Below are positions 36,347 to 61,891 of a stretch of DNA of 64,000 nucleotides, piece after piece; the stretch's first letter is position 1; each line of letters starts with the position of its first letter. The notes under the pieces are model-generated. The model searched no databases. It saw only the letters and a program-made list of their open reading frames with translations, and was not told the DNA's origin. The translations under genes and the position numbers were made by a program. This DNA is from Brevibacillus brevis. Lineage in GTDB: Bacteria > Bacillota > Bacilli > Brevibacillales > Brevibacillaceae. The stretch lies in the NCBI RefSeq assembly GCF_031583145.1, contig NZ_CP134050.1, positions 1,760,501 to 1,824,500 on the forward strand. The letters run 5' to 3'.

Positions 36347-36409
36347 GTAAAGATAGTGAAAATAGACGTAAAAATTGTGCAAATCTCGTCAGGAAGCATG
36401 CAGGATAAT
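36347..36409 (+). promoter_or_regulatory. Tandem 21-bp repeat site A and amidohydrolase promoter
   Basis: GTAAAGATAGTGAAAAT (36347-36363) and GTAAAAATTGTGCAAAT (36368-36384) start 21 bases apart. GATAAT (36404-36409) begins 36 bases after the second repeat starts. The -35 position reads AAATCT, so an activator is likely needed. A weaker half-copy (GTAAAGGCAATTTG) starts at 36325. Confidence 0.75.
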
Positions 36410-36457
36410 GATGGGGAAAGGCATGGAGAGAGCCGAAAAAGAGAGGATGGATGGTGG

Positions 36458-37702
36458 ATGGCTGTTACCTTTTGGTTGACCAATGTTCGTCTGGAGACGG
36501 GCTATCGCCGCGAGAACGGCGTCGTCAGCGGGACGGAAACCGCTTTGTTTCACATCTTGATAAAAGACGGAAAATTTGCGCGGATCGCACCGGCACAAGA
36601 AATGCCGCAGGACGGTATTCCGCAGCGCGACGCAGGCGGTCTTCTGGCCTTGCCGTCCTTCGTGGAAAAACACGTGCATCTGGACAAGACACTCCTGGGA
36701 GAAGAGTGGCGGGCGGTCATTCCGGTATCCAGCATCATTGAGCGTTGCGAGATCGAAAAGCGCGTGCTGCCGGGACTTGCGACCACCACGCAGGAGAGGG
36801 CGGAAAATCTGCTCGGCGTCCTGCTTTCGTACGGTTCTACCCATGTACGGACGCATGTGGACATTTACCCGGAGGCAGGCATCTTTAACCTGGAGGAAGT
36901 CAAAAAGGCGCTCGCGACCTATCAGCATCTGGTTTCCCACGAGATCGTCGCATTCCCGCAGCACGGACTGCTACGCACCGGCGCAAAGGGATTGCTTCGA
37001 GAGGCGCTGCAACAGGGAGCGACCCATGTCGGCGGCGTCGACCCGGCCACCGTGGACGAGGATATCGAGGAATCGCTGCACCAAATGATGGAGCTGGCTG
37101 TAGAGGCCGGGGCGGGAGTCGACCTGCACCTGCACGATCCCGGGCATTTGGGGACGTTCACCATGAAGCGGCTGGCGGCGATGACCGTCGACGCAGGCTG
37201 GCAAGGGCGGGTGGCCATCAGCCATGCCTTCGCCCTCGGCGACATTCCGTCTGCAGAGGCAGAAGAGATGGCGACGATTTTGCGCGAGGCGGGGATCACC
37301 ATCATCACGAGCGTGCCGTACAGCCGCGTCATTCCACCGGTATCTTTGCTGCACCAAAACGGCGTGGATGTGGCGGTCGGCTGCGACAACATCTTCGACA
37401 CCTGGCAGCCGTACGGTAACGGCGACGTCCTGGAGCGTCTGTGGCGATTGGCTGAGCGTTCTCGCTGGCTGGATGAGCTGTCGCTTTCCCAGTCGCTGCG
37501 CTTTATCACTGGTGGAAAGACGACGCTGGACGCAGGGGGCAAACAGTTGTGGCCGGCAGCCGGAGAAGACGCCAGCCTCGTCCTCGTAGAGGCGAGCTGC
37601 TCGGCGGAGGCGGTGGCACGACGGGTGGACCGCCAAGCGGTAATCTCCCGCGGCCAGCTCGCAGCGGGGCAGCTGGATGAAGTGCCGGCCAGGGAGGCGT
37701 AA
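36458..37702 (+). CDS. Cytosine-deaminase-like amidohydrolase, paralogue 1, 414 aa
   Basis: Metal-dependent hydrolase of the CodA-type amidohydrolase group, cytosolic. Seen: FWLTNVRLETGYR (beta-sandwich start), metal HxH in VEKHVHLDKT (about residues 67-76), VRTHVDIYPEAG, IVAFPQHGLLRTG, metal His in VDLHLHDPGHLG (about 222), ISHAFALGD and the metal Asp in GCDNIFDTWQPYG (about 309). In CodA the HCDE motif supplies a catalytic Glu three residues after the His; here that place is Asp. Likely hydrolyses a C-N bond in an imported cyclic amide or amidine. ATG 36458 follows GAGAGGA; site A drives it. It is 6 bases upstream of paralogue 2. Confidence 0.85.
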   Translation: MAVTFWLTNVRLETGYRRENGVVSGTETALFHILIKDGKFARIAPAQEMPQDGIPQRDAGGLLALPSFVEKHVHLDKTLLGEEWRAVIPVSSIIERCEIEKRVLPGLATTTQERAENLLGVLLSYGSTHVRTHVDIYPEAGIFNLEEVKKALATYQHLVSHEIVAFPQHGLLRTGAKGLLREALQQGATHVGGVDPATVDEDIEESLHQMMELAVEAGAGVDLHLHDPGHLGTFTMKRLAAMTVDAGWQGRVAISHAFALGDIPSAEAEEMATILREAGITIITSVPYSRVIPPVSLLHQNGVDVAVGCDNIFDTWQPYGNGDVLERLWRLAERSRWLDELSLSQSLRFITGGKTTLDAGGKQLWPAAGEDASLVLVEASCSAEAVARRVDRQAVISRGQLAAGQLDEVPAREA

Positions 37703-37708
37703 GTACGC

Positions 37709-38929
37709 ATGCCATCCCCGTACTGGATCATCAATGCTCGCCTTGAGTGCGGTTACGAATGGGAGCAGGGGGCGATACGCGCTACTCGGACCGAGCTGTG
37801 TGATTTGCTGATCGAAAACGGAAAGATCGGCCGGATCGTGCCTTCCCGCGAGATTCTGGAGGACGGCTTGCCGAGAGTGGATGCCCGCGGGCTGCTCATC
37901 CTGCCGTCCATGGCGGAAAAGCACATTCATCTGGACAAGACCTACTTCGGCGGGCCGTGGAAGGCGACGACGCCGGTCAAAAACCTGTTCGAGCGGCACG
38001 AGGAGGACAGGGGGCTGCTGCCAGCCCATTTGCGAAATTCGCAGCAGGGAGCAGAGAGCATTATGTCGCTGCTGATCGATACCGGAGTCACTCACGTCCG
38101 TACCCATTGCCACGTCGATCCACAAGTAGGGCTCAGCTTTCTGGAAAGGCTGCTCGCGGCATTTGACACTTTCGCGGGGCGGCTGTCCCACGAGATCGTC
38201 GCATTTCCCCACTACGGCATGCTTCGTACCGAAGCGGCGAGTAGCGTACGCGAAGCGCTTCGGCATGGGGCTACACATGTAGGGGGCGTCGATCCGGGGG
38301 GTGTGGACGGACACATCGAGAAGTCACTGCAGACGATATTCGAGCTGGCTGTCGAGGCCGATGCGGACATTGACCTGCATTTGCACGACCCGGGCCATCT
38401 CGGGCTGTTCACCATCAAGCGGCTGGCTGCCTTGACGGAAGAAGCAGGCTGGCAAGGTCGCGTCACCGTCAGCCACGCGCTGGGGCTAGGAGACGTCTCG
38501 CCGGAGGAAACGCGAGAGATCGCCCTGCAGCTGGCCGCACTGGGGATCTCGATCGCATCCACGGTTCCGATCAACCGGCCGACTATACCGATCCCCTTGC
38601 TTCATTCGACAGGGGTAGCCGTCATGCTGGGCAACGACAGCCTCACCGACAACTGGACGCCGTTTGGGACCGGTGATTTGCTGGAAAAGGCAGGACGGCT
38701 CGCGGAGCGCTTTCGCCTCACGGACGAACGGTCGCTGGCTGCCGCTCTAGGATATGTCACAGAAGGCCGGATCCCGCTCGACGAGGAAGGCAGCCGGCAA
38801 TGGCCTCTTCCCGGAGACGAGGCCAGCCTGATGGCGGTCGAGGCGTCTTGCTCGGCGGAGGCGGTCGCGAGGAGGGCCACGCGGCGAGTGGTGCTGTACC
38901 AGGGGACTCGCGTGTCGGGGGAGTGGTAA
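37709..38929 (+). CDS. Cytosine-deaminase-like amidohydrolase, paralogue 2, 406 aa
   Basis: Same architecture as its upstream neighbour: YWIINARLECGYEW, AEKHIHLDKTYF (metal HxH), VRTHCHVDPQVG, IVAFPHYGMLRTE, IDLHLHDPGHLG, VSHALGLGD and GNDSLTDNWTPFG. The substrate-binding Gln of the FPQ motif seen in paralogues 1, 3 and 4 is His here (FPH), suggesting a different substrate or product geometry. It follows paralogue 1 after 6 bases and precedes paralogue 3 by 48 bases, all on one strand, so it belongs to the same operon under site A. Catalytic identity is inferred from motifs only. Confidence 0.85.
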   Translation: MPSPYWIINARLECGYEWEQGAIRATRTELCDLLIENGKIGRIVPSREILEDGLPRVDARGLLILPSMAEKHIHLDKTYFGGPWKATTPVKNLFERHEEDRGLLPAHLRNSQQGAESIMSLLIDTGVTHVRTHCHVDPQVGLSFLERLLAAFDTFAGRLSHEIVAFPHYGMLRTEAASSVREALRHGATHVGGVDPGGVDGHIEKSLQTIFELAVEADADIDLHLHDPGHLGLFTIKRLAALTEEAGWQGRVTVSHALGLGDVSPEETREIALQLAALGISIASTVPINRPTIPIPLLHSTGVAVMLGNDSLTDNWTPFGTGDLLEKAGRLAERFRLTDERSLAAALGYVTEGRIPLDEEGSRQWPLPGDEASLMAVEASCSAEAVARRATRRVVLYQGTRVSGEW

Positions 38930-38977
38930 TCACGCATGGCAGGGACGTTTATTAACTACGAAAGGGTGTCAGGATAG

Positions 38978-40201
38978 ATGGTTACGAGCTATTGGATCAC
39001 CAACGTTCGCTTGGAGAGCGGATACCGCAAGGAACAGGATAAAATCGTCGCGACCCAGACGGAAATCGCCCATCTTTTGATCGCGGACGGCCGGATCGCG
39101 CAAATCGAATACGGGACAGAGCCGCCCCGGACGGATCTTCCGAAGCAAGATGCAGCCGGACTTCTCGCTCTGCCTTCTTTCCGGGATATGCACATTCACA
39201 TCGACAAGACGTACTACGGAGGGCCGTGGAAAGCCGTCACGCCGATCAAGACGATTCTCGACCGGTTGGCGGAGGAAGCCCAGCTGATGACCCAGCTGCT
39301 GCCGACAGCGCAGGAGCGGGCGGAAAAAATGCTGGCGCTTTTGCTCTCGGCCGGGACGACGCACGTCCGGACACATTGCAACATCGATCCGTACATCGGA
39401 TTGAAAAACCTGGAGGCGACACTTATGGCCATCGAGACATTCCGCGGAAAGATGAGCTGCGAGATCGTCGCATTTCCGCAGCAGGGGCTCCTGCGCAGCA
39501 ACCAGGTGGAAAATATCCGCCAGGCGCTGAAAATGGGCGCGACCTACGTGGGCGGCGTCGACCCGGCCACAGTGGACCAAAACATCGAAAAGTCGCTGGC
39601 TACCGTGTTTGAGCTGGCAGTGGAGGCGGACGCGCCGATCGACCTGCACCTGCACGATCCCGACTACCTGGGCATTTTTACCTTCAAACGGCTTGCGAGG
39701 ATGACGGAAGAGGCAGGCTGGAAGGGACGAGTCACCATCAGCCATGCCAACTCGCTGGCGGACATCAGTTTGGCTGAAGCGGGGGAAGTCGCCGAGATGC
39801 TCGCGGAGCAGGGCATTTCCATCACGAGCACGGTACCAGTCGTCAAGCCGACGATTCCGATCCCCCTGCTGCGCGAAAAAGGCGTGGCGGTCTCGCTCGG
39901 GGACGACAGCATTACGGACCACTGGTCGCCGTTCGGGCAGGGAGACAGTCTGGAAAAAGCGGGAAGGCTCGCGGAGCGCTTCCGGATGCAGGATGAGCGT
40001 TCCCTTTCCCAGGCGCTTGGCTTCATCACCGGAGGCAAGACGCCGCTGGACAAAGAGGGCAGCCGCCAGTGGCCCAACGTCGGAGACGAGGCTGACATCG
40101 TCTTCCTGCACGCCGCTTCGGCAGGGGAGGCCGTAGCGCGCCGCAGCAAGCGCCAGGCGGTCATGTTCAAAGGGAATGTCGTACACGGTTCGCTGCACTA
40201 G
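38978..40201 (+). CDS. Cytosine-deaminase-like amidohydrolase, paralogue 3, 407 aa
   Basis: Third tandem copy: YWITNVRLESGYRKEQ, RDMHIHIDKTYYGGPWK (metal HxH), VRTHCNIDPYIG, IVAFPQQGLLRSN, IDLHLHDPDYLG, ISHANSLADISLAEA and GDDSITDHWSPFG. It is closest by eye to paralogue 2 (shared YxGGPWKA, PTIPIPLL and EKAGRLAERFR blocks), pointing to a local duplication. Own ribosome site AAAGGGTGTCAGGA before ATG 38978. It ends the operon; a strong hairpin follows at 40213. Confidence 0.85.
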   Translation: MVTSYWITNVRLESGYRKEQDKIVATQTEIAHLLIADGRIAQIEYGTEPPRTDLPKQDAAGLLALPSFRDMHIHIDKTYYGGPWKAVTPIKTILDRLAEEAQLMTQLLPTAQERAEKMLALLLSAGTTHVRTHCNIDPYIGLKNLEATLMAIETFRGKMSCEIVAFPQQGLLRSNQVENIRQALKMGATYVGGVDPATVDQNIEKSLATVFELAVEADAPIDLHLHDPDYLGIFTFKRLARMTEEAGWKGRVTISHANSLADISLAEAGEVAEMLAEQGISITSTVPVVKPTIPIPLLREKGVAVSLGDDSITDHWSPFGQGDSLEKAGRLAERFRMQDERSLSQALGFITGGKTPLDKEGSRQWPNVGDEADIVFLHAASAGEAVARRSKRQAVMFKGNVVHGSLH

Positions 40202-40212
40202 CATGATCGGGT

Positions 40213-40271
40213 AAGGAAAAGGAGTGACTCCGAAAGTAGCTCAAACTGCTTAGAGGGCACTCCTTTCCTTC
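40213..40271 (+). terminator. Hairpin ending the amidohydrolase operon
   Basis: AAGGAAAAGGAGTG pairs with CACTCCTTTCCTT (one bulged A). No long T-run after it, but the arm itself is T-rich. Confidence 0.6.
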
Positions 40272-40385
40272 GGAGACAGGCATGTGGGGGACGCCTTGAG
40301 TACGTCATCACGCATGAAACGGGATGGTGTGGCCCGTACTTCAGCCGCATGAGCCGGCAGGAAGCGGAATGACCGAAAAAGAGCA

Positions 40386-40446
40386 TAAAATAGCAGTGCC
40401 AGCCAAGGGACCAGCGTTTGCGCCCGCAGCTGACACTGCTTTTTCA
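40386..40446. terminator. Terminator of the stalk/GH-like protein gene
   Basis: AGCAGTGCCAGC/GCTGACACTGCT arms; TTTTT on the plus side and ATTTTATG on the minus side. Confidence 0.75.
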
Positions 40447-40474
40447 TTTGCTGTACCGGCTGCGCCAGGCAGGA

Positions 40475-41770
40475 TCAGTTCGACCTTGCAGCCAATTTAC
40501 TCCAGCTTTTGTAATCATGGACGGCAAAGCCCGCGTAGCTCGAAAAATGGGAAAGCTTTTCCTTCGCTTTTTGCAATTCCGCTTCCATCGCCCCTGCACT
40601 CAAGGAGTGAAACGACGTCATTGGGCCTTCCGAGCTGGGGGCCGTCTCCACGGCTACGATCACGTTCTTCTTCAGTGTGGCGGCTTCCCGCAAGATCGCA
40701 TTGGCGTTGGCCACGATGCCGTCATTTCCGAGGGCGACATTCCGATAATCCATGATGACCACCGAATCCGCCTTTTCCAGCAGCCATGCGCTCATGCTGT
40801 AATCAGAGCCCGGGACCTTGACCATGTGCAGCCAAAAAGGAACGTCGAACGCAAGGGTCAAGCCGCTCCCTTTTGCTTTCTCCTCGATGAAGCGCATGCT
40901 GTTCATCCAGGTTTCAATCACCCGCTTGTTGTCTGTCTTCCATTCGGCCAAAATATAGGGCTCTATGTCGAAATGCAGCCCCGTAAACCTCTCTTCCGGC
41001 CCGACTGCCGCGTTGTAGCTTTGCACCCAGGCGATGAACGATTCGATTTGGTCCTGGTAGTGCGGAAGGGCCCACTCGGGGCGTCCGCCAAGCGCTTCCA
41101 CCCTGATCTGTTTCTCCCTCGCCTTCCTCACGAAGTCGCGATAAACCGGTACGGGTACGTCCTTGTCAATCTGAAGGTAGATCGCAGTCAGACGGTGATC
41201 GCTGGCAAATGTGAAAACGCTGTCCGGGGACGTCTGGATAATGGCGGCGTCCCAGATCCAGGTAGCTTGCTGCAGCTTTGGCGTGCTGACGGCAGCGTTT
41301 GGAGGCGGAGAGGCGGGGACGATTTTCGTATTCCCGGGAGTCGTCACCACAGCCAGATTGCGCTCGGCGACCCAATCGATTTGGGCGTGAAAGGCTTCTC
41401 CGATAAAGCGGAGTGGCACCATCGTGCGGTTGTTCCTGATCACCGCGGGAGTATCGAAGGCGACCATCTCGCCGTTCAACTGTGCACGGTTTTGCCCGAT
41501 CTGGAAACGGATGCTTTGCCCCTTTTTCGCAAGTGTCACTTCATTTGACTGCCCGTACCACTGAACACCGAGACCCAGCTCTTCCGCTACGAAGCGTACG
41601 GGGACCATCGTCCGGTCTGTCTGGGGATCGAGATAGGGCGGTTCATCGGGGAAGGACACGTATTGCCCGTTCACGGCTACGTCGATCGGTGATGCGGCAA
41701 GTGCCGGCGAGGAGGCTGCGGTGCCAAGCAACAGGAGCAGGGGTAAGGCTGCCAGCCGATTTCTTTTCAT
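40475..41770 (-). CDS. Secreted protein: copper-amine-oxidase-N stalk module plus putative glycosidase-like barrel, 431 aa
   Basis: Signal peptide 1-25. Residues 30-145 hold two stalk-type half repeats, each with a TMVPVRF or TMVPLRF strand (RTMVPVRFVAEELGL and RTMVPLRFIGEAFHA). Residues 165-430 look like a TIM barrel: TAIYLQIDKDVPVPVYRDFV, GLHFDIEPYILAEW with paired acids at the end of a strand, DVPFWLHMV, VVIMDYRN and FAVHDYKSW, as in family 18-like or DUF4434-type hydrolases. A wall- or polysaccharide-cleaving function is inferred. Start ATG 41770. It lies between two amidohydrolase loci but is on the other strand and has no 21-bp site. Confidence 0.78.
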   Translation of the reverse strand: MKRNRLAALPLLLLLGTAASSPALAASPIDVAVNGQYVSFPDEPPYLDPQTDRTMVPVRFVAEELGLGVQWYGQSNEVTLAKKGQSIRFQIGQNRAQLNGEMVAFDTPAVIRNNRTMVPLRFIGEAFHAQIDWVAERNLAVVTTPGNTKIVPASPPPNAAVSTPKLQQATWIWDAAIIQTSPDSVFTFASDHRLTAIYLQIDKDVPVPVYRDFVRKAREKQIRVEALGGRPEWALPHYQDQIESFIAWVQSYNAAVGPEERFTGLHFDIEPYILAEWKTDNKRVIETWMNSMRFIEEKAKGSGLTLAFDVPFWLHMVKVPGSDYSMSAWLLEKADSVVIMDYRNVALGNDGIVANANAILREAATLKKNVIVAVETAPSSEGPMTSFHSLSAGAMEAELQKAKEKLSHFSSYAGFAVHDYKSWSKLAARSN

Positions 41771-42052
41771 GTGGGTATGACCTCGTATCTTCCGTTATGC
41801 GTAAATGCCTTCCCGGCGCCAGATGCACCGAATGGCTATTCTATTTTACAATACCTGGCTTCTGAATTCCCTGATCAAATGGTTGCAGTTTCAGCCGTTT
41901 TTGCACACAAGGGGATAAGTTGAATCCGGATCGGGTGCCGATTTGCAGGACTCTGTTCCGAACGTAAAGATTATCATATGTATGAACTTGACATCATATC
42001 GATGTAAAGGCTTGAAGGACTGAATCAGTGATGAGGGAGAGGAAGTGTGTTC

Positions 42053-42391
42053 ATGAAACTGAATCATCTCAATCTCACGGTAACTGACGTGAACGCGGCA
42101 CGCGAGTTTTTGGAAAAGTATTTTGAGCTGCAAACCAGGCATACGCGGGGAAATTCATTCGCTGTGCTCTCCGACAAAGATGGACTCGTGCTGACCTTGA
42201 TGAAAGGGACGGAAGCAGAATATCCCAAGACTTTTCACATTGGTTTTATTCAGGAAAGTGAAGAGCAAGTAAACGCGATCAATCGACGAATGAAGGAAGA
42301 TGGTTTCGATGTGGGGGAGCCGCAAAGAGCACATGGATGGACTTTCTACGTGAAAGCCCCTGGCGGATTTACGGTTGAGGTCCTTTGCTGA
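42053..42391 (+). CDS. VOC/glyoxalase-family protein, 112 aa
   Basis: One vicinal-oxygen-chelate unit with two beta-alpha-beta-beta-beta modules: LNHLNLTVTDVNAAREFLEKY (residues 3-23), HIGFIQESEEQVNAINRRMKE and the C-terminal WTFYVKAPGGFTVEVLC, where a metal-ligand Glu (TVEV) is kept. Members are glyoxalase I-like, fosfomycin-resistance or dioxygenase-like; the length fits a single-domain resistance-type or unknown VOC protein that dimerises. ATG 42053 is placed after GAGAGGA; GTG 42047 is possible. It is monocistronic with a strong terminator at 42442. Confidence 0.85.
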   Translation: MKLNHLNLTVTDVNAAREFLEKYFELQTRHTRGNSFAVLSDKDGLVLTLMKGTEAEYPKTFHIGFIQESEEQVNAINRRMKEDGFDVGEPQRAHGWTFYVKAPGGFTVEVLC

Positions 42392-42441
42392 ATCGGGCAG
42401 AAAGGACCTGAGCAATGGAAATGCAAAGGGACAGACTAAAG

Positions 42442-42497
42442 AAGCAGCGGCAGTCCCGGGGTGGATTTTTCGCCCCCGGAACTGCCGCTGCCTTTTG
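42442..42497. terminator. Terminator hairpin between convergent genes
   Basis: AGCAGCGGCAGTCCCGGGG pairs with CCCCCGGAACTGCCGCTGC, then CTTTTGG. Confidence 0.8.
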
Positions 42498-42510
42498 GAT
42501 ACCCGGCGAG

Positions 42511-42556
42511 ACCTGTACCCTTTAGCTGTAAAAGGCATGGCGTAGCCAGGTGTTCC
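42511..42556 (+). repeat. Post-terminator structured repeat, copy 3 (core only)
   Basis: The 21-base core AAAAGGCATGGCGTAGCCAGG (42530-42550, spelled here as AAAAGGCATGG plus CGTAGCCAGG) equals copy 1 exactly. The outer pair is ACCTG (42511-42515) with CAGGT (42547-42551). The GGAAT hairpin part is missing. Confidence 0.6.
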
Positions 42557-42586
42557 AGGAAGCAGTCTGTCTTTTTGCACATGCAT

Positions 42587-43858
42587 TTACGTTGCTGCGA
42601 TTTCCTTCCCGCCGCCAAAAGAGCGGTGAGTGATGTCCTCCAACCCCCCGAGCACAATCTTCCCTTTAAACATGACCGCGGGACGGCGGGATCGTCTGGC
42701 TACCGCTTCAGCCGAGCAGCTGGCCTCTGCAAAGACGATGCTCGCCTCATCGCCTACCTTCGGCCATGCGCGGTTGCCTTCCTTGTCCAGCGTCGTTTTT
42801 CCACCCGTGATGAAAAACAGGGACTGCACGAGAGAGCGCTCATCCACCCAGCGATACCGCTCGACCAGACGGTTCAGCTTTTCCAGCATGTCGCCAGTGC
42901 CGTATGGCGACCAGGAGTCGTAGAACCCGTCGTAGCCCAAAGCGACCCTGACTCCTTTTTCATGCAGGATCGGCACGGGAGGCATCGGTCGATTGATGGG
43001 GACCGTGGTCATGATTTGCACGCCGTTTCGCGCGAGACGCTCCGCCATCTCCGCGCTCTCTTCGGGGGCCACGTCTCCCAAAGCGAAGGCATGGCTGATC
43101 GCCATCCGGTTTTTCCAGCCCGCTTCCTCGGTCAGGTCGAGGATCCGCTTGATCGTATAAAAGCCGAGCGTTCCCGGGTCGTGCAGATGGATGTCGACGT
43201 CCGCATCGGCTTCGATCGCGATGTCCATCATTTCGCGCAGGGACCCTTCCAGTTCATTGTCGATTCCAGCAGGGTCCAGACCGCCCACGAGGGTCGCGCC
43301 TTCGCGCATGGCCTGTCTCATCAGCTGGCTCGCTTTCGTCCGAAGCAGTCCTTGCTGGGGAAAGGCCACGATCTCGTAGGTAAGCTTGTCACTGTAAGAC
43401 TCGAGGGCTTCGCGTACGCCTTCGAGGTTTTTCAGGCCAACGAACGGGTCGATGTTCACGTGTGTCCGCACATGGGTGGCACCGCCTGCGAGCAGCCAGG
43501 AGAGCATGGCCTGTGCCCGCTGTTTTGTCGTGCCCGTCAACAAGGGCATTTCTCTCTCCTCGAATTGCAGCCGATCGATCAGCTTTTTCGGCGGCAGACA
43601 TGATTTCCACGCTGCCCCAGCGTACGTCTTGTCCAGGTGGTTGTGCATTTCTGCAAACGATGGCAGCGCAAGCAGGCCGTTTGCATTCTGGATGGGGAGG
43701 GGAGTAGACGGCGGATTGGCTGCCGACTCGATACGGACGATACGGCCATCTTCAATGAGCAGATGGGCCAGCTCCGTGACCGTATGATCGACTCCATCCG
43801 GTCCCGTCTCGAATCCGGCGTCCAGGCGTACATTGGTGAGCCAAAAAGCATTCGTCAT
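42587..43858 (-). CDS. Cytosine-deaminase-like amidohydrolase, paralogue 4, 423 aa
   Basis: Fourth member of the family, transcribed alone: FWLTNVRLDAGFE, FAEMHNHLDKTYA (metal HxH), VRTHVNIDPFVG, IVAFPQQGLLRTK, VDIHLHDPGTLG, ISHAFALGDVAPEE and GYDGFYDSWSPYG. A 12-residue extension follows the usual C terminus. Start ATG 43858 has GGGATTGATG upstream (a modest ribosome site AGGGAT). Its promoter carries the tandem-repeat site E, tying it to the transporter locus although it lies 7 kb away. A second promoter-proximal feature, a Tn7-like end, begins 195 bases upstream. Confidence 0.85.
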   Translation of the reverse strand: MTNAFWLTNVRLDAGFETGPDGVDHTVTELAHLLIEDGRIVRIESAANPPSTPLPIQNANGLLALPSFAEMHNHLDKTYAGAAWKSCLPPKKLIDRLQFEEREMPLLTGTTKQRAQAMLSWLLAGGATHVRTHVNIDPFVGLKNLEGVREALESYSDKLTYEIVAFPQQGLLRTKASQLMRQAMREGATLVGGLDPAGIDNELEGSLREMMDIAIEADADVDIHLHDPGTLGFYTIKRILDLTEEAGWKNRMAISHAFALGDVAPEESAEMAERLARNGVQIMTTVPINRPMPPVPILHEKGVRVALGYDGFYDSWSPYGTGDMLEKLNRLVERYRWVDERSLVQSLFFITGGKTTLDKEGNRAWPKVGDEASIVFAEASCSAEAVARRSRRPAVMFKGKIVLGGLEDITHRSFGGGKEIAAT

Positions 43859-43930
43859 TAAACATCAATCCCTTCGCGTTGAAAATCAGGAAAACGAGTG
43901 AAATGGGTCAGAAGCCATGCTGCTTTTAAA

Positions 43931-43993
43931 ATTGTAGAGAATATTTCGAACATAAAGTTGCACGTTCTTTACTTGTTTTTGCATCATCTTTAC
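43931..43993 (-). promoter_or_regulatory. Tandem 21-bp repeat site E and promoter of paralogue 4
   Basis: Minus strand: GTAAAGATGATGCAAAA starts at 43993 and GTAAAGAACGTGCAACT at 43972, 21 bases apart. TACAAT occupies 43936-43931, exactly 36 bases from the second repeat start. No recognisable -35. Confidence 0.78.
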
Positions 43994-44095
43994 GTGTTCG
44001 GGGGAAAGGCGTCTCCTTCTTGGGATATGCCATTCGCTTGCCAACACGATGGTGTTATGAGAAAACAAAGTAGTAGACTGACGCGATAAACGAAA

Positions 44096-44144
44096 CAGCA
44101 GCAGCCATGGACGAGAAAATAAAGTCCTAGACTGCTGCTGTTTT
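44096..44144 (+). other. CAGCAGCAG/CTGCTGCTG hairpin enclosing a TnsB-like site
   Basis: Nine-base arms 44096-44104 and 44132-44140 followed by TTTTATT. The second left-end TnsB-like site lies in the loop. It could terminate rightward transcription entering the element. Confidence 0.5.
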
Positions 44145-54062: not shown

Positions 54063-54139
54063 TTGAAGACCTCCTTATTCACCATTATTATAAATAGTTA
54101 CGCTTCTCAGGAATATAAGGAGTAAATGCCTTCCCAGTA

Positions 54140-54174
54140 AAAAAAAGGCGTTCCGGTCGCGGAACACCTTTTTC
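54140..54174 (-). terminator. Terminator of the small secreted protein gene
   Basis: Minus strand: AAAAAGGTGTTCC/GGAACGCCTTTTTTTT. It separates that gene from the two-component operon. Confidence 0.85.
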
Positions 54175-54184
54175 GTGCTGATTC

Positions 54185-54487
54185 TTAGTTGGAATCGTCG
54201 CTTGGTCCTGGGAAGCTGAGCCAGTTCGTCGTCAAGCTGTCCACGGTAGTTGCGGAAGCCGCAGGTGCAGTCGCAGCGGTGCCATCCGTAGTTGTGGACG
54301 TTGCAGGAGACGTTGCAGCCTCGCCGGTAGTCGGGTTGACGATGCTGTGGTATTCTCCGACCATAGTAGTAAAGACGCTGGCAGTACTTTCTTTGTCATC
54401 GTCGCTTTTTGCGAAGGCCGGAACAGCCAGAGACGCTGTAATTGCCAGTGCGGCAGTCAGAGCTACGAAACGACAGGCTTTTTTCAT
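54185..54487 (-). CDS. Small secreted Thr/Ala/Ser-rich protein, 100 aa, function unknown
   Basis: Signal peptide 1-26 (VALTAALAITASLAVPAFAK with AFA-K cleavage). The mature 74 residues are low-complexity (ATSPATSTTTDGTAATAPAA) and end in LSFPGPSDDSN. No cysteine or anchor is present. ATG 54487 has GGAGG 9 bases upstream; ATG 54496 would abut it. The gene precedes the two-component operon on the same strand but is separated from it by a terminator; it could be a target or a signal, which is only a guess. Confidence 0.7.
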   Translation of the reverse strand: MKKACRFVALTAALAITASLAVPAFAKSDDDKESTASVFTTMVGEYHSIVNPTTGEAATSPATSTTTDGTAATAPAASATTVDSLTTNWLSFPGPSDDSN

Positions 54488-54747
54488 GATTTTCATCCTC
54501 CATGATCCCTCTCCCCAGAGGGGGGAATATCTTCAAGTTTTGTTATAAACCACATTTCTGTAATCCTTCTGAAAAAAGTATGAAGTTTTATGAAGAACTG
54601 CACGAAGAAGTGCATTTGGGCGGCTCAACCTTAAAAGTAATTATTTTCGGAATAAACTTGAGCGAGAAATCGTTCAAAATAGTTGATATTTTACTAACAA
54701 TGTGTAGTACTAGAGAAGTAGGATTTCATACTAAGGAGATGTAGAAG

Positions 54748-55821
54748 ATGGAGTGTCAGCTAACGATTACCCTGGCGGAGCAAAAAAAGGAGAAGCCTTC
54801 GGCAGATAAGCTTGGGTTCGGCGTGCATTTTACCGATCACATGTTTACGATGGACTATACGGAAGGGAAGGGATGGCACGATCCGCAAATCGTACCGTAC
54901 TCCCCGCTCACACTCGACCCCGCAGCCATGGTTTTCCACTACGGTCAGGCTGTGTTTGAAGGATTGAAAGCCTACCGCAATCAGGAAGACAGCGTCTGGC
55001 TGTTTCGGCCGGACCAAAACTTCAAGCGCATGAACCGCTCCCTGAGCCGCCTCAGCATGCCCCTGATCGACGAGGAATTCGTGCTCGAGGCGCTGAAAAA
55101 GCTGGTTGCTATTGAAAAAGAATGGATTCCGACGGAGAGCGGAACGTCTCTATATATTCGTCCTTTCGTAATTGCGACGGAAGCGTGCTTCGGCGTCCGC
55201 GCTTCGCATACGTACAAATTCGTCATCCTTCTGTCCCCGGTAGGCGCTTACTACTCCGGCGGCATGAAGCCGGTCAAAATTTACGTGGAAAACAACTACG
55301 TCCGGGCAGTGCGCGGCGGCACCGGAAACGCCAAAACCGCGGGCAACTACGCGGGCAGCCTGAAAGCGCAGGAGGAAGCGAAAGAGAAAGGCTACGAGCA
55401 AGTGCTCTGGCTGGATGGCATCGAGAACAAATACGTGGAAGAAGTCGGCAGCATGAACGTGTTCTTCAAGGTCAAGGGCGAGGTGTGGGTCCCTGCTTTG
55501 AACGGCAGCATTCTGGAAGGGATCACACGTGATTCCACGATTCACTTGCTGAAAGACTGGGGCGTGCCCGTGGTCGAAAAGCGCGTTTCGATGGAGGATC
55601 TGTACGAGGCGTACACCAAAGGGGAGCTCGAGGAAGCATTCGGCACCGGTACCGCCGCCGTCATCTCGCCGATCGGGGAGATGAGCTGGAACGGCCTTCG
55701 CATGGTCATCAACAAGGAAGAGACCGGACCGCTGACGACCAAGCTTTACGATACCATGACAGGCATTCAGTACGGCCAGCTCGAAGACAAGTTCGGCTGG
55801 TCTGTAAAAGTAACGGAATAG
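54748..55821 (+). CDS. ilvE: Branched-chain amino acid aminotransferase, 357 aa
   Basis: Fold-type IV PLP enzyme that interconverts Val, Leu and Ile with their 2-oxo acids using glutamate. Seen: [21 protein letters not shown] (residues 56-75 span), [34 protein letters not shown], the Schiff-base lysine in [16 protein letters not shown] (about 197), [12 protein letters not shown] and [12 protein letters not shown]. Length and motifs fit the bacterial eukaryote-like BCAT II group (YbgE/YwaA). ATG 54748 follows AAGGAGATG. Monocistronic, with a terminator at 55839. The 260-base gap upstream shows no T-box or clear promoter. Confidence 0.93.
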
Positions 55822-55838
55822 CCCAGACGCAACGAGCA

Positions 55839-55880
55839 GGCACAGTCGTCCTCGAACGAAGAGGAAGGCTGTGCCTTTTG
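55839..55880 (+). terminator. Terminator after ilvE
   Basis: GGCACAGTCGTCCTC/GAGGAAGGCTGTGCC arms, then TTTTG. Confidence 0.8.
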
Positions 55881-55924
55881 CGTTCCACGTAATCAAAATT
55901 TTATGATCGTCCAAAATAACAATA

Positions 55925-55987
55925 GTAAAAATAATGAAAAGAGAAGTAAAGATAGTGGAAAGAAAAAAGTTAGAAAATTATTAAAAT
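55925..55987 (+). promoter_or_regulatory. Tandem 21-bp repeat site B and promoter of binding protein 1
   Basis: GTAAAAATAATGAAAAG (55925) and GTAAAGATAGTGGAAAG (55946) start 21 bases apart. TAAAAT (55982-55987) begins 36 bases after the second repeat. No -35 consensus. Confidence 0.78.
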
Positions 55988-56046
55988 TAATACTACTGCA
56001 CCGCAATTTTTCATGATTACTCATTTGCAAAAGGGGGCCTTCATTC

Positions 56047-57645
56047 GTGAAAAAAAAGAGCAAGCTTCGTTCCATCCTCGCCCTGTCCGTGCTGATCGCA
56101 ACCGTTCTCACGGGTTGCGCATCCGGGCAGCAGGCCAATAGCCCGACCGGCGCAAGCAAAGCAGCGGACAGCCAAACGAAAACCGCTCCCGCGCCTGCGG
56201 AGGGAGGCACTTTGATCATCGCCCGCTTGTCCGACGCCAACAATCTCGATCCGCATTTCAGCACCCAGATCAACTCGATGGCGGTCGTTCAGCACAAACT
56301 GTACGAGGGACTCGTGCTGCAAGGGCCGAACAGCGAGTACAAGCCGCTCCTGGCAAGCGAATGGAAGCAGATCGACGACCTGACCTGGGAGTTTGTCCTG
56401 CGCGAGGGCGTGACCTTCCACGACGGCACCCCCTTCGATGGCGAGGCGGTGAAAAAGACGATCGACCGCATTTTGGACAAGAATGCCCCTACTCCCAAAG
56501 CCAACATGTTCGGAATGATCAGGGAAGTAAAGGTGGTGGACACTCACAGGATCCAATTCGTGCTGCACTATCCCTTTGCGGGGCTCTTGTCTGTCCTGGC
56601 GAGTGCGGAGGGAGGCATCATCAGTCCAAAGGCCATCGAGCAGTACGGCAAAGACCTGAGCAAGCATCCGGTCGGGACGGGCCCGTTCGTGTTTGAATCG
56701 TGGACCCCCGGGCAGGAGATCGTGCTCGTGAAAAATGAAAACTACTGGGGGAAAAAGCCCAGGATCGACAAGGTCGTCTTCAAAACCGTACCTGAGGACA
56801 CCACGCGGGTAGCGATGGTGGAGACGGGCGAAGCGCACATCGCGGAGCAGTTGCCGGTGACGGAGCTCGAGCGCGTGCAAAATTCCCCGAACATGACACT
56901 CGGGCGTTATCCGTCCTTTGCGGTGGACCACATCGGCATGAACGTCACCAAGAAGCCGTTTGACGACGTCCGCGTGCGGCAGGCGATTGCCCATGCCATC
57001 GACAAGGAAGCGATCATCCAGGGCGTGTACAACAACGTCGGGAAAGTCGCCAACTCTACCTTGGGGCCACAGGTCATCGGGTACAGCCCCAATGTAAAAG
57101 GGCCGGAATACGACCTGAACAAAGCCAAGCAGCTGCTTGCCGAAGCGGGATATCCGAACGACTTTAAGGCGACGGTGTACTTGAATGACAACAAGGCGAG
57201 GATCAATGTGGCTGAAGTGCTGCAATCGCAGCTCAAAGGGATCGGCATCGACCTGCAAATCCAGGTGATGGAGTTCGGGGCGTACCTCGATCTGGCTGCG
57301 AAAGGCGAGACACAGATGTTCATCAGCGGTTGGGGAAATGCCACTGGCGACGCCGACTACAACCAGTACAATCTGTTCCACAGCACGTCGCACGGAGTGC
57401 CCGGCAATCATTCCTTCTATTCCAATCCGAAGGTGGATGCGCTCATCGAAGCGGGCCGCAAAGAGAAAGACCCGCAGAAGCGCAAAGATATTTACGAAGA
57501 AGCACAGCAGATCGAGATGGAGGAAGTCCCTCTGCTCCCGTACCGCAGCAGCGAAAACCTGGCGGCGATCTCCAAAAGCGTGCAAGGCGTGACCATCAGC
57601 CCGTCCGGGTATGTCGAACTCAACGATGTGACGATTCAGGAGTGA
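56047..57645 (+). CDS. ABC transporter solute-binding lipoprotein (family 5), paralogue 1, 532 aa
   Basis: Lipoprotein with lipobox LTGC (Cys about 22), displayed on the membrane exterior. SBP_bac_5 fold: GTLIIARLSDANNLDPHFST (residues 58-77 region), YEGLVLQGPNSEYKPLLASE, the family block GVTFHDGTPFDGEAVKKTID, VGTGPFVFESWTPGQEIVLV, YWGKKPRIDKVVFKTVPEDT and KPFDDVRVRQAIAHAIDKEA. It would feed the DppBCDF-type permease at 32.4-36.3 kb, the only such importer in view, with which it shares the tandem site. GTG 56047 after AAGGGGG. A convergent chemoreceptor gene follows. Confidence 0.92.
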   Translation: MKKKSKLRSILALSVLIATVLTGCASGQQANSPTGASKAADSQTKTAPAPAEGGTLIIARLSDANNLDPHFSTQINSMAVVQHKLYEGLVLQGPNSEYKPLLASEWKQIDDLTWEFVLREGVTFHDGTPFDGEAVKKTIDRILDKNAPTPKANMFGMIREVKVVDTHRIQFVLHYPFAGLLSVLASAEGGIISPKAIEQYGKDLSKHPVGTGPFVFESWTPGQEIVLVKNENYWGKKPRIDKVVFKTVPEDTTRVAMVETGEAHIAEQLPVTELERVQNSPNMTLGRYPSFAVDHIGMNVTKKPFDDVRVRQAIAHAIDKEAIIQGVYNNVGKVANSTLGPQVIGYSPNVKGPEYDLNKAKQLLAEAGYPNDFKATVYLNDNKARINVAEVLQSQLKGIGIDLQIQVMEFGAYLDLAAKGETQMFISGWGNATGDADYNQYNLFHSTSHGVPGNHSFYSNPKVDALIEAGRKEKDPQKRKDIYEEAQQIEMEEVPLLPYRSSENLAAISKSVQGVTISPSGYVELNDVTIQE

Positions 57646-57692
57646 GAGCAAGTACATCTAAGCAGCCGCATGGGAAGGAACTACCTGCATCA

Positions 57693-57738
57693 GAAAAAGG
57701 AAAGGGGAGCAGATGATTTCTGGCTCCTCTTTCCTTTT
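57693..57738. terminator. Bidirectional terminator
   Basis: AAAAGGAAAGGGGAGC/GCTCCTCTTTCCTTTT arms between the binding protein and chemoreceptor genes. Confidence 0.88.
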
Positions 57739-57751
57739 GGCCGGACTAATA

Positions 57752-59734
57752 CTAATACGTAAACTTGTTGATCAGCACTTTGAGCTCCTCGGCCAGCGAT
57801 GCCAGCGCCTGGGAAGAAGAGGAGATCTCTTCCATGGAGGCGAGCTGCTCTTCCGTCGAAGCCGCGACCTCTTCGGCCGATTCCGCGTTGTTCTTGGCGA
57901 TCTGCGCCAGCTCTTTTGCCACCTCGCTCACAGCCCCTACGCCAGCCGAGATTTGCGACGCGATGCTGGATACTTCCTCGATCCGCGGAGCTGTCTTTTG
58001 CGTGCTTTGCAAAATTTGCTCGAACTTGTGGATCGTATCCGTAGAGACTTCCAGCCCTCCTGCCACGTCCTGCTTGACCTTTTCCATGGTCAGCACGGAC
58101 TCTTTCGTTTCCCGCTGAATTTCCGCGATCAACTCCGAGATTTGCGCGGCGGAAGCCTGGGATTGTTCCGCCAGGACCCGTACCTCAGTCGCTACGACGG
58201 CAAATCCTTTTCCGTGCTCGCCAGCACGTGCCGCCTCGATGGCTGCATTCAAGGCAAGCAGGTTGGTCTGCTGGGCGATGCCGCTGATGACTTCGGAGAT
58301 CGTGCCGATTTCTTTCGAACGCTCATACAGCGATCTGATCATGGTATCGGATTTTTCCACCGACTCGTGAATCGAGTTCATTTGTCCCATCACTTGCTGG
58401 ATGGACGTCCCGCCTTCGTCGGCCTGGACCGTCGTGTCTTTCGAGAGGTCGGATAGCACGCGGACCGTGTCTACGATGCGTTCGACCCCGTAAGAGATTT
58501 CCTCGAGGGCCTGTACGTTTTGGTCGACTCCGCTCGTTTGCTTTTCCGCGCTGGTGGCCACTTCCTGCACCGCAGCCGCGACATGCTCGGAGGTAGCGCT
58601 CGTCTGCTGGGCGCTCGCCGTCAGCTGTTCGGAGGACGCGGCTACCTGTTCCGCCCGCGTCTCGACATCCTGGATCAGCGTCCGCAGGTCGGACTGCATC
58701 TGCTGGAACGCCTGGGCGAGCTCCCCGATCTCATCGTTGGACTGCACCTCGATCGTTTCGGTCAGGATGCCGTTGCTGATTTTGACCGCTTGCGCGTGTA
58801 GCAGCTTGATGGAGCGGATGACGCCTCGGAGGATCACGGCAATCAGACAACCGCCGAGGAGCAGGCATGCGACGATGGTAATGACCGTGTTGATGAATAT
58901 CGGTTGGACGGCTTCCGTGATTTCACGGATGAGCATGGTTCCGCCGATTTTCCAGCCAGTCAGCTTGTTTGTGGTGAACAGCATGCTTTTCTCGTCGCCG
59001 TTCAGCGTGTAGGAAAAGCTGCCGGACTCGCTTTGATACGCCTGGTCGTAGAAGCTCTCCTGTGCGACTTCACCGGCTTTCATCGTCGGATGGACGACGT
59101 ATTTTTTGTCCTGGTCCAAAATCAATACGTATCCGTCTTTCCCGATTTGTACGGAAGAAGCGGCTTTCTTGATCTGTTCGATGCCGAGCGTGATCCCGAC
59201 GACTCCGGATCCGTCATCCGTCGTTCTGGCGATGGTCACGATGACTTCCCCAGTCACAGCAGACAGGTACGGGGGCGTAATGATGGCTGTCCCCTTGTTG
59301 GCCATAGCATTTTTATACCAGTCTCTCGTACGGGGATCGAAACCGGGTTTGGCCTCCTGCTTCGGGTAGCGGTAGTAGTAGCCCTCCTCGGTCCCCATGC
59401 TGATGCTCGCCACCTCTGGGTGCATCCCCATGTACATTTCGAAATAACGCATGACGTCCGGGCTTTCGCCGGGATGGTACATGCTTTTGTTGATGACGGA
59501 AGCCAAGTATGTGGCGTCGTCCATTTTGGGCGTGAAGGTGGAATTGACGACCGTATTGACGAGCTCCACGTTTTCGCCGGCACTCTTCAGCATCTGGCTT
59601 TCCATCGCAGCTTTCGACTGGGTGTATGCCAGTGTTCCGATGACGAGCGAAGGAAGGATGAGAATCAAGAGAAACGTAGTGATGAGCTTCGTCTTGAAGT
59701 TTCCGCGCCGGACATTCCATAATCGAATCTTCAT
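57752..59734 (-). CDS. Methyl-accepting chemotaxis protein with Cache sensor, 660 aa
   Basis: Transmembrane helix 1 (about residues 16-36), extracellular double-Cache domain (about 40-275, with [54 protein letters not shown]), TM2 (about 285-308), HAMP (about 310-360) and the signalling domain. The hairpin tip [20 protein letters not shown] and [15 protein letters not shown] are conserved. ATG 59734 is used; the frame extends to 59788 without a better ribosome site. Flanked by two binding-protein genes, so it may sense the same or related ligands, directly or through them. Confidence 0.9.
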
Positions 59735-59794
59735 GTTTGCAAGCATCCTCTCTGATGATGGATAGAAAAAAGTGATATTTTTCGCCAATCATTT

Positions 59795-59804
59795 ATATCG
59801 GATA
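59795..59804 (-). promoter_or_regulatory. SigD-like -10 element upstream of the chemoreceptor
   Basis: Minus strand TCCGATAT resembles the SigD -10 GCCGATAT at 7 of 8 positions; the upstream TAAA element is only approximate (CTAATT). Chemoreceptors of Bacillales are usually SigD genes. Confidence 0.35.
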
Positions 59805-59833
59805 AAGGGGGATGATGAATTAGCTGCAAACTA

Positions 59834-59896
59834 GTAAAAATACTGAAAATAGAAGTAAAGAGAGTGAAAAATTATAGGCAGAATTGTAGGTAAAAT
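59834..59896 (+). promoter_or_regulatory. Tandem 21-bp repeat site C and promoter of binding protein 2
   Basis: GTAAAAATACTGAAAAT (59834) and GTAAAGAGAGTGAAAAA (59855) start 21 bases apart. TAAAAT (59891-59896) begins 36 bases after the second repeat. Confidence 0.78.
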
Positions 59897-59960
59897 GAAA
59901 CGAGCGCGAATGATGGAAAAATTCACAAGAATACAGCGCGCGAAAAAGGGGGACATCACT

Positions 59961-61547
59961 ATGAAAAGGACGCGCTTTTTTCAGACGCTGATTGCGCTGA
60001 CAGTTGCGGTATCGGCTGCGCTGACAGGCTGCTCGTCTGGCCAAGAGGCAAGTCAAACCGCCAACGGTTCGGCTCAACCGGCAGCCAACCCGCAATCGGG
60101 CAAAACAGGCGGCACGCTCGTGATTGCACGGCTGTCCGATGCGAATAACCTTGACCCGCATTTTCTCACCCAGATCAACTCGGCTGCGATCATTCACCAC
60201 AAGGTATACGAAGGACTCGTCCGGATGGACAAGGAGAGCAAGTACGTGCCAGCGCTTGCCACGGAATGGAAGCAGCTGGATGACGTGACGTGGGAGTTCA
60301 AGCTGCGCCAGGGCGTCACCTTCCACGACGGCGCACCGTTCAATGCGGAAGCGGTCAAAAGAACGATTGCCCGCGTGCAGGACCCGAGCGTCGGCTCCAA
60401 CCGGGCGAATCTGTTTGAGGCGATCAAGGAAGTAAAAGCCGTGGATGACCAAACCGTCCAATTCATCCTGCACTATCCGTATGCTCCGCTCTTGTCTGTG
60501 CTGGCCGGTGCGGAAGGGGCGATCCTTTCTCCCAAGGCAATCGATCAGTACGGAAAAGATCTGAGCAAACACCCGACGGGCACCGGACCGTACAAGTTCG
60601 AATCGTGGACGCCCGGACAAGAAGTAGTCCTCGTGAAAAACGAGAACTATTGGGGCGGGCAGCCCAAGCTGGACAAAGTCGTCTTCAAGACCGTCCCTGA
60701 GGACACGACCCGCATTGCCATGGTAGAGACGGGAGAAGCACAGGTAGCCGAGCAGCTGCCCGTAACGGAAGTAGATCGCGTGCAAAATTCGAGCAGCATG
60801 ACGCTCGGGCGCTTTGAATCCTTCTCCAGCGACCATATCGGGATCAACACCAAGAAGAAGCCGTTTGACGACGTGCGGGTACGCCAGGCGATCGCGTATG
60901 CCGTCGACAAGGAGTCCATCATCAAAGGAGTGTACAACGATGTAGGGACACCGGCTCACTCCTCCATCACCCCGACGATGGTGGGCTACAGTCCAAATGT
61001 AAAAGGGCTGGATTACAACCTGGAAAAAGCAAAGCAGCTGCTGGCAGAGGCAGGCTACGCCAACGGACTCAAAGCGACGATTTACTTGAATGACAACAAA
61101 GCCCGGATCAGCGTAGCGGAGGTATTGCAGCAGCAGCTGAAACAAATCGGGATCGACCTGCAAGTGAAGGTGCTGGAATTCGGGGCGTACATCGATGCGG
61201 CCTCCAAGGGGGAGACTGACCTGTTCATCAGCGGCTGGGGCAATGCTACGGGCGACGCCGACTACAACCAGTACAACCTGTTCCACGCCAAGTCGCAAGG
61301 CGCGCCGGGGAACCACTCGTTTTACAGTAATCCGGAGGTGGACAAGCTGATCGAGGACGGCCGCAAGGAAAAGGATCCGGCGAAACGTACACAAATCTAC
61401 GAGCAGGCCCAACAGATCGAAATGAACGAGGCAGCACTGATTCCGTACCGCTTCTCCGAGAATCTCGCTGCTATCGAGAAAGGTGTGGAGGGCGTCTGGA
61501 TCAGCCCTGCCGGCCACATCGAAATCGACGAGGTAACTCTTCCATAA
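59961..61547 (+). CDS. ABC transporter solute-binding lipoprotein (family 5), paralogue 2, 528 aa
   Basis: Lipobox LTGC (Cys about 23). Same fold and order of blocks as the copy at 56047: GTLVIARLSDANNLDPHFLT, YEGLVRMDKESKYVPALATE, GVTFHDGAPFNAEAVKRTIA, TGTGPYKFESWTPGQEVVLV, YWGGQPKLDKVVFKTVPEDT and KPFDDVRVRQAIAYAVDKES, then SGWGNATGDADYNQYNLFHA near the end. Very close to paralogue 1 by eye, with differences in ligand-side loops. ATG 59961 after AAGGGGG; the open frame from 59895 is leader. It is monocistronic with its own tandem-repeat promoter and a terminator at 61562. Confidence 0.92.
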   Translation: MKRTRFFQTLIALTVAVSAALTGCSSGQEASQTANGSAQPAANPQSGKTGGTLVIARLSDANNLDPHFLTQINSAAIIHHKVYEGLVRMDKESKYVPALATEWKQLDDVTWEFKLRQGVTFHDGAPFNAEAVKRTIARVQDPSVGSNRANLFEAIKEVKAVDDQTVQFILHYPYAPLLSVLAGAEGAILSPKAIDQYGKDLSKHPTGTGPYKFESWTPGQEVVLVKNENYWGGQPKLDKVVFKTVPEDTTRIAMVETGEAQVAEQLPVTEVDRVQNSSSMTLGRFESFSSDHIGINTKKKPFDDVRVRQAIAYAVDKESIIKGVYNDVGTPAHSSITPTMVGYSPNVKGLDYNLEKAKQLLAEAGYANGLKATIYLNDNKARISVAEVLQQQLKQIGIDLQVKVLEFGAYIDAASKGETDLFISGWGNATGDADYNQYNLFHAKSQGAPGNHSFYSNPEVDKLIEDGRKEKDPAKRTQIYEQAQQIEMNEAALIPYRFSENLAAIEKGVEGVWISPAGHIEIDEVTLP

Positions 61548-61561
61548 TCATGACGCTCAGG

Positions 61562-61612
61562 AGCAGCATCGCGAGACTTCCCGAGGGGATCGAGCCATGC
61601 TGCCCTTTTCTT
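61562..61612 (+). terminator. Terminator after binding protein 2
   Basis: AGCAGCATCG/CG..ATGCTGC arms with an inner CGAG/CTCG-like helix, then CCTTTTC. Confidence 0.6.
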
Positions 61613-61891
61613 CTAGGGGGAAACTTTCCTGGGAAATGCTCGGAGAAGGAAAATCGATCAGGCAAATTCGCAATCAGGGGGGTGCACGGGGAGCCTTGTC
61701 ATGAAAGGCTGGAGGCATTGCTGCCCTGAATCGGAGTACGTGCAGGAAAAGGAAGAGTCAAAAATAAAGTAAGTGTAAAAATATTATAAATAGATGTAAA
61801 GATGCTGAAAGGCTTGCTTGACCCCTTGCTTTATAATGCAGATAAGAACCTAACACAGAAATTTCGACAACATCTCACAGGGGGCATACAG
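61613..61891 (+). other. Leader and spacer before binding protein 3
   Basis: About 280 bases without a gene. The first 160 show nothing I can name; the rest holds tandem site D, the TATAAT hexamer and a 50-base untranslated leader. The open frame starting at 61802 in the leader has no ribosome site. Confidence 0.5.
61775..61837 (+). promoter_or_regulatory. Tandem 21-bp repeat site D and promoter of binding protein 3
   Basis: GTAAAAATATTATAAAT (61775) and GTAAAGATGCTGAAAGG (61796) start 21 bases apart. A perfect TATAAT (61832-61837) begins 36 bases after the second repeat; the -35 position reads AAGGCT. Confidence 0.8.

Follow-up and report, generated by a model that had tools for sequence, protein, structure and literature searches.

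Genes and tandem repeats at the locus

The stretch of DNA analyzed here, called the window in the following, comprises 64,000 nucleotides from Brevibacillus brevis (NCBI RefSeq assembly GCF_031583145.1, contig NZ_CP134050.1, positions 1,760,501 to 1,824,500; coordinates below count from its first letter) and contains five intergenic tandem repeats in front of genes for amidohydrolases (AH) and substrate-binding proteins (SBP). The original prediction, derived from the sequence alone, had interpreted these repeats as the mark of a hidden regulon under an AraC-type protein. The sites and their −10 hexamers are as follows:

36347–36383, plus strand: tandem site of AH1–AH3, copies at 36347 and 36368, −10 GATAAT at 36404–36409
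43957–43993, minus strand: tandem site of AH4, copies at 43993 and 43972, −10 TACAAT at 43936–43931
55925–55961, plus strand: tandem site of SBP1, −10 TAAAAT at 55982–55987
59834–59870, plus strand: tandem site of SBP2, −10 TAAAAT at 59891–59896
61775–61811, plus strand: tandem site of SBP3, −10 TATAAT at 61832–61837

All ten copies of the repeat lie where they had been described, with zero to three mismatches to GTAAARATANTGMAAA, and the period of 21 bp is present in each of the five sites. Counted from the first base of copy 2, the −10 hexamer follows at exactly 36 bp in every case, and the reported lack of a −35 box is borne out by the best matches to TTGACA, which amount to 2, 2, 3, 2, and 2 of six positions (spacers of 15–19 bp). 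The 74–98 bp given for the distance to the start codon correspond to the interval from the end of copy 2 (74, 98, 85, 90, and 80 bp). The proposed gene classes agree with Pfam, which assigns four proteins to Amidohydro_3 and three to SBP_bac_5; all four amidohydrolases additionally pass the cut-off of NCBIfam NF005312, a family named only “amidohydrolase”. These genes, together with the importer operon divergent from AH1–AH3, are located as follows:

32409–36273, minus strand: oppF, oppD, oppB, and oppC, a peptide-type ATP-binding cassette (ABC) importer without a binding protein of its own (Pfam ABC_tran, oligo_HPY, BPD_transp_1)
36458–40201, plus strand: AH1, AH2, and AH3, three tandem amidohydrolases (Pfam Amidohydro_3, NCBIfam NF005312)
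42587–43858, minus strand: AH4, amidohydrolase (Pfam Amidohydro_3, NCBIfam NF005312)
56047–57645, plus strand: SBP1, family-5 binding protein with lipobox (Pfam SBP_bac_5)
59961–61547, plus strand: SBP2, family-5 binding protein with lipobox (Pfam SBP_bac_5)
61892–63463, plus strand: SBP3, family-5 binding protein with lipobox (Pfam SBP_bac_5)

Statistics and geometry of the tandem arrangement

Genomes were scanned with a pattern covering both copies (GTAAARN4TGNAAN6GTAAARN4TGNAA), and the reversed pattern served as control. The five sites of the window are the top five places in the 6.2-Mb genome (0, 0, 0, 0, and 1 mismatches) and its sole matches with at most one mismatch, the sixth place having two. 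When up to three mismatches were allowed, the tandem pattern yielded 11 matches genome-wide versus one for the reversed pattern. A single copy is not distinctive (82 matches at up to two mismatches versus 56 for its reverse); the signal is carried by the tandem arrangement. Within 2.46 Mb of fetched, redundant loci, pairs of single copies lay 21 bp apart in 138 distinct cases, 42 bp apart in 13, and 63 bp apart in six, with no other distance occurring more than five times, and the reversed motif gave three pairs at 21 bp. Some pairs at multiples of 21 bp are supplied by a coding repeat of the TTAAAACCGATGTAA type in one locus (L119:1618-1780), which mimics motif and period by coincidence. Three copies in a row, spaced by 21 bp, are found in the SBP2 promoter of several species (e.g., L063:8417-8473). 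The assertion that the repeats cannot be due to chance is thus upheld by the genome scan, the pair-distance counts, and the matrix scores from other genera given below.

Of the 141 distinct sites that deviate from the pattern at no more than one position, 114 carry a −10 hexamer that starts exactly 36 bp downstream of the first base of copy 2. The consensus from the 19 clusters formed by these 114 sites reads GTAAAGATANTGAAAATANAAGTAAAGATNNTGAAA, N3, AATWTTCWGAATATT, N3, TATAAT, with near-invariant positions in the boxes and variable positions between them, although the invariance of GTAAA is in part a matter of selection because the sites had been picked with the pattern. Matches to the −35 consensus remained below those of shuffled sequences and never exceeded four of six positions (two in 12 clusters, three in five, and four in two). 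With the −10 hexamer set as −12 to −7, copy 2 covers about −48 to −33. This arrangement corresponds to the class II geometry known from AraC and XylS.

Distribution of the sites within and beyond Brevibacillus

The presence of the sites was compared with that of the following gene of the window:

30811–31524, minus strand: response regulator (RR), the proposed reader of the sites (Pfam Response_reg, HTH_AraC, and HTH_18; co-occurrence with the sites)

The genus sample consisted of 26 genomes, in which overlapping pairs of triple sites were counted separately. An orthologue of the RR with 89–100% identity occurs in 15 of them (in G008 only for residues 4–171), and all 15 have between five and eight tandem sites at up to one mismatch. 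In the remaining 11 genomes no RR was found (E ≤ 1e-30 with high identity; G025 shows only a 30% match), and ten of these have no site at this threshold, G016 having one at two mismatches. Summed over the 26 genomes and at up to two mismatches, 130 matches stand against 26 for the reversed pattern. The original prediction had named relatives that keep the genes but lose the repeats or their spacing as the observation that would speak against it, and the outcome of this comparison favors the regulon.

Outside the genus, the search started from seven aligned RRs and led to 80 loci, the best 80 of 253 relatives, in which the closer RRs are those of L081–L134 (54 loci). A site matrix, for which genus sites from 81 contexts in 9 clusters were the sole training set, was applied to 40 of the 54 loci, leaving aside those of Brevibacillus (L081–L087, L097, L105) and those with distant RRs (L129–L133). 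L128, which is a Brevibacillus by name and belongs to another GTDB genus (G037), is among the 40 and was outside the training. A site was found in all 40 loci with RR orthologues, among them Paenibacillus, Peribacillus, Gottfriedia, Neobacillus, and others, at scores of 25.9–47.1. The maximum was 17.0 after first-order shuffling of these loci (76 of 80 with a match at all), 18.8 in 25 loci of other RRs (L136–L160), and 20.2 in six loci of distant RRs (L129–L133, L135).

Eight further genomes were scanned with the strict pattern at up to one mismatch. The six that encode the RR contained 2, 3, 2, 2, 0, and 1 sites, and the two that encode other RRs contained none; summed over the eight genomes, the reversed pattern matched twice and the pattern itself ten times. 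The RR-bearing genome without a strict site (L116) has weaker sites according to the matrix. The scan of this and related genomes that had been suggested at the outset has thereby recovered the sites, and their presence tracks the RR within the genus and beyond. A scan for repeats anchored at −10 hexamers in the distant RR loci revealed no convincing alternative operator, with no match in L129 and, as judged by eye, only coding or low-complexity matches in L130–L133. A comparison of helix-turn-helix (HTH) positions separating the RRs of the site-bearing clade from the distant ones yielded one position (147) and was not informative.

Predicted members of the regulon

Best matches were used to assign target genes to the 150 distinct sites that have no more than two mismatches and a −10 at 35–37 bp. 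For 124 of them a gene could be assigned: family-5 binding proteins (58), AH1-type (26) and AH4-type (15) amidohydrolases, Amidohydro_1 amidohydrolases (14), a family-1 binding protein (9), and an M24 peptidase (2). The other 26 remained unassigned (17 had no closed frame and 9 a short one) because short frames without a closed end were not called. The predicted regulon is larger in relatives, where it includes Amidohydro_1-type amidohydrolases, an ABC operon with a family-1 binding protein, the M24 peptidase, and unlinked paralogues; these relatives also hold unlinked targets of the same gene classes. In the window, a methyl-accepting chemotaxis receptor (57752–59788, minus strand; MCPsignal, dCache_1) is encoded between SBP1 and SBP2 and perhaps mediates chemotaxis toward the same compound.

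Proposed regulator and mode of action

The protein encoded at 30811 is a two-component response regulator and not a ligand-binding AraC protein. Its AraC-type DNA-binding domain contains two HTH motifs (Pfam HTH_AraC, HTH_18), and the phospho-acceptor of its receiver, Asp56, is present in all 55 of 55 sequences. Judged from its distribution, this RR is with high probability the reader of the repeats, and the AraC-type regulon with AraC/XylS geometry that had been postulated gains support from the comparison of genomes. All these observations make it very probable that the tandem repeats are operators of the RR at 30811, serving class II activation of genes for uptake and hydrolysis.

According to the mechanism proposed here, each tandem repeat would be an operator for the AraC-type RR encoded at 30811–31524. 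One RR monomer would occupy each half-site, its two HTH motifs contacting GTAAAR (box A) and TGMAA (box B), which lie about one helical turn apart, and two monomers would bind head to tail at a distance of 21 bp, i.e., two turns. The downstream monomer would then sit at about −48 to −33, in place of a −35 box, and would bring RNA polymerase to promoters consisting of a −10 hexamer only, as in class II activation by AraC and XylS; we infer activation rather than repression. The RR would be switched through phosphorylation by the co-encoded kinase, with the signal probably coming from the adjacent SSF-fold protein, whose role is presumed, or from the opp importer. As output, binding proteins for the peptide-type ABC importer and cytosine-deaminase-like amidohydrolases would be produced, which might allow the uptake and hydrolysis of a compound that probably contains nitrogen. 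On these grounds, the most likely mechanism is class II activation of the kind known for AraC and XylS, with the binding proteins and amidohydrolases as its targets.

Several observations weigh against this interpretation. The loosest accepted site (L119, 25.9) does not score far above the best match in a distant RR locus (20.2). Furthermore, 27 of the 141 sites lack a −10 hexamer at exactly 36 bp, most of these having it at 35 or 37 bp, belonging to triple sites, or having no −10 hexamer with at least five of six matches. G001 retains two isolated sites without an RR (L070 about 9404-10725 and L069 about 8962-10238), both in front of shortened amidohydrolase genes, and G008 keeps six sites even though its RR frame is shortened (190 amino acids, matching only residues 4–171). 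In G001, one site precedes a frame of 271 amino acids that matches residues 1–261 of a 489-amino-acid relative; the other precedes a frame of 392 amino acids, about 100 residues short of a relative with 501, with TTATCG at the place of its −10 hexamer. The simplest reading is that the cluster was lost together with the regulator and relic sites were left behind, the place having the look of a deletion scar. The former of these sites adjoins a fragment of an EamA gene, and EamA flanks the cluster elsewhere. In G008 (B. centrosporus, L075/L105), a stretch of about 1.4 kb separates the tandem site from oppC, itself split; elsewhere this distance is about 70 bp.

Of the alternative explanations, the one that survives best, although it is improbable, holds that the same RR binds the repeats yet acts as a repressor, obstructing RNA polymerase at the −35 position as long as no releasing signal arrives. 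The downstream copy does overlap the −35 region, and the direction of control cannot be read from sequence. However, a simple repressor needs no fixed distance of 36 bp to the −10 hexamer, and promoters that have no −35 box, with matches below shuffled expectation, should need an activator. It is even less probable that the repeats are not operators but either a promoter module that was copied when the genes were recently duplicated or an A-rich element of the promoters. Paralogues among the targets, namely four amidohydrolases and three binding proteins, may have brought their promoters along, and the motif is A-rich; yet sites are shared by different families (SBP_bac_1 binding protein, Amidohydro_1 amidohydrolase, M24 peptidase), their boxes stay near-invariant where intervening positions vary, and their presence follows the RR across genera. 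Least probable of all is another reader, either outside the window or one of the AraC-type proteins at 14834 and 25526, which were annotated as such in the original prediction and lie within 25 kb, in genomes that at a first look offer many RR candidates: among its three candidates only the RR at 30811 tracks the sites within and beyond the genus, whereas relatives of the protein at 14834 (E ≤ 1e-60) occur in five of the 26 genomes, just two of which (its own and G008) belong to the 15 with sites, and those of the protein at 25526 in all 26, including genomes without sites.

Additional elements at the promoters

Next to the activator sites proposed for the RR, two further elements were located in the intergenic region between the opp operon and AH1:

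36325–36340, plus strand: a third GTAAA half-site in the divergent promoter, placed 22 bp above its copy 1
36303–36317, minus strand: CodY-like box (12 of 15 positions), tentative, overlapping a candidate −10 hexamer (GATAAC) of the operon encoding opp, the histidine kinase, the RR, and the SSF-fold protein

The third GTAAA at 22 bp is found in 19 of 22 aligned opp-divergent promoters (absent in L111, L117, and L124) and in 24 of all 114 contexts. It lies near the expected −35 position of the opp operon and might couple both directions.

The spacer element between operator and −10 hexamer, AATWTTCWGAATATT, resembles the CodY box AATTTTCWGAAAATT, the consensus being that given in PMC5314169. 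Over the 19 clusters, the match to this box is enriched in register (mean 9.05 of 15 versus 5.39 after base shuffling, z 9.7), and the five promoters of the window match it poorly (4, 10, 7 or, if shifted by one, 11, 8, and 4 of 15). When up to two mismatches are allowed, the strain's own genome contains 31 matches to AATTTTCWGAAAATT versus 2 to its reverse, and the flanks of those 15 of the 31 places that had loci showed, by eye, no clear CodY gene set. The palindromic variant of the box is rare, with zero to three places per genome at up to one mismatch in eight genomes (its reverse: none in six genomes, 2 and 6 in the other two). CodY itself exceeds the family cut-off in all 26 genomes of the genus. 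Two CodY-family proteins above this cut-off are encoded in the strain's own genome (G000:C1:3552592-3553344 and G000:C1:4279797-4280546), and each of the 26 genomes has at least two CodY matches, the second near 295 bits. An input of CodY at these promoters is conceivable, if rather doubtful.

Kinase and SSF-fold protein

The two genes flanking the RR encode its presumed signaling partners:

31521–32309, minus strand: histidine kinase (Pfam His_kinase, HATPase_c), one N-terminal membrane helix
29489–30814, minus strand: SSF-fold membrane protein, proposed sensor partner (Pfam SSF, 1.9e-10; structure model and Foldseek; co-presence with the kinase)

No sensor domain was found in the kinase, for which Pfam gives only His_kinase and HATPase_c, and a crude hydropathy count indicated one membrane helix in most loci, two in three, and none in one with a shortened frame. 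The gene of the SSF-fold protein directly follows that of the RR, and its product mostly has 10–12 predicted helices. In the 54 loci with closer RRs, the kinase adjoins the RR in 48, and kinase and SSF-like protein are both present beside it in 47; the remaining kinase-bearing locus ends 759 bp after the RR. Both genes are absent beside six orphan RR paralogues. These paralogues (L116, L118, L121, L125, L127, and L134) adjoin amidohydrolase or binding-protein genes that bear the site.

When nine relatives of the SSF-fold protein were compared with Pfam, the SSF match was clear in one and below the cut-off in one, with an unrelated weak match in another and none in six. A structure model built from 22 sequences (pLDDT 85.1, pTM 0.84) retrieved SSF transporters in Foldseek, the urea symporter DUR3 being the top hit (TM score 0.79 by query length, 16% identity); DUR3 is also the best match by sequence (E 4.9e-7). 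The SSF-fold protein may sense the substrate on behalf of the kinase.

Comparison with known systems

The predicted regulon described here is new and well defined and of a known type; no paper on it or on its motif was recognized among the top-ranked PubMed Central results. The comparison yields a likely regulator, the half-site, the period, the position at the promoter, and a list of targets in several genera. With regulator, half-site, and targets predicted, the inducer and the substrate of these amidohydrolases become directly testable.

A period of 21 bp is that of Pm and of araI1-I2. According to PMC5481539, XylS binds at Pm to two 15-bp direct repeats of two boxes each, with the promoter-proximal repeat at the −35 region. 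The sites resemble those of XylS at Pm, and also of AraC at araBAD, in combining an AraC-type double HTH with two direct two-box repeats, of which the proximal one lies at −35. Unlike XylS and AraC, the regulator is a response regulator without a ligand-binding domain; the half-site is GTAAAR-N4-TGMAA rather than the TGCA-N6-GGTA of XylS, and in contrast to XylS at Pm several promoters are joined in one regulon, in Bacillales.

Regulators of the YesN class, which combine a receiver domain with an AraC-type HTH, are numerous in Bacillales, and to our knowledge few of them have a defined operator. The RR shares its domain architecture and a His_kinase partner gene with this class, for example with XydR of Clostridium cellulolyticum, for which no consensus site could be defined according to PMC3572039. 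Unlike for XydR, half-site, period, and position are defined here across genera, and a sensorless kinase is accompanied by a separate SSF-fold protein.

The association of an SSF/SLC5-fold membrane protein with a histidine kinase is reminiscent of the SLC5/STAC histidine kinases CbrA and CrbS. In these, both parts form one chain through a STAC domain, whereas the window, like each of the 47 loci with both, has separate genes for the SSF-fold protein and the kinase, and Pfam detects no STAC domain at E ≤ 0.001 in the kinase or the SSF-fold protein of the window. Proteins combining SSS and HisKA are, in section 5.1.1 of a review (PMC7918813), described as absent from Gram-positives at first glance, and those with SSS and HATPase_c as present in Actinobacteria. 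It is tempting, if speculative, to propose a split transceptor in Gram-positives. A sensorless kinase would be signaled by an SSF-fold protein encoded in a gene of its own; this protein would be a former transporter that has become a sensor, and its gene has stayed in the operon in organisms ranging from Brevibacillus to distant Bacillota, also in those whose protein Pfam fails to recognize as SSF. The RR would drive the regulon through the GTAAA tandem operators, and the further conserved element between operator and −10 hexamer, AATWTTCWGAATATT, possibly a CodY box, would add a starvation input. If the SSF-fold protein is indeed the sensor, this system would represent a two-gene, Gram-positive counterpart of CbrA.

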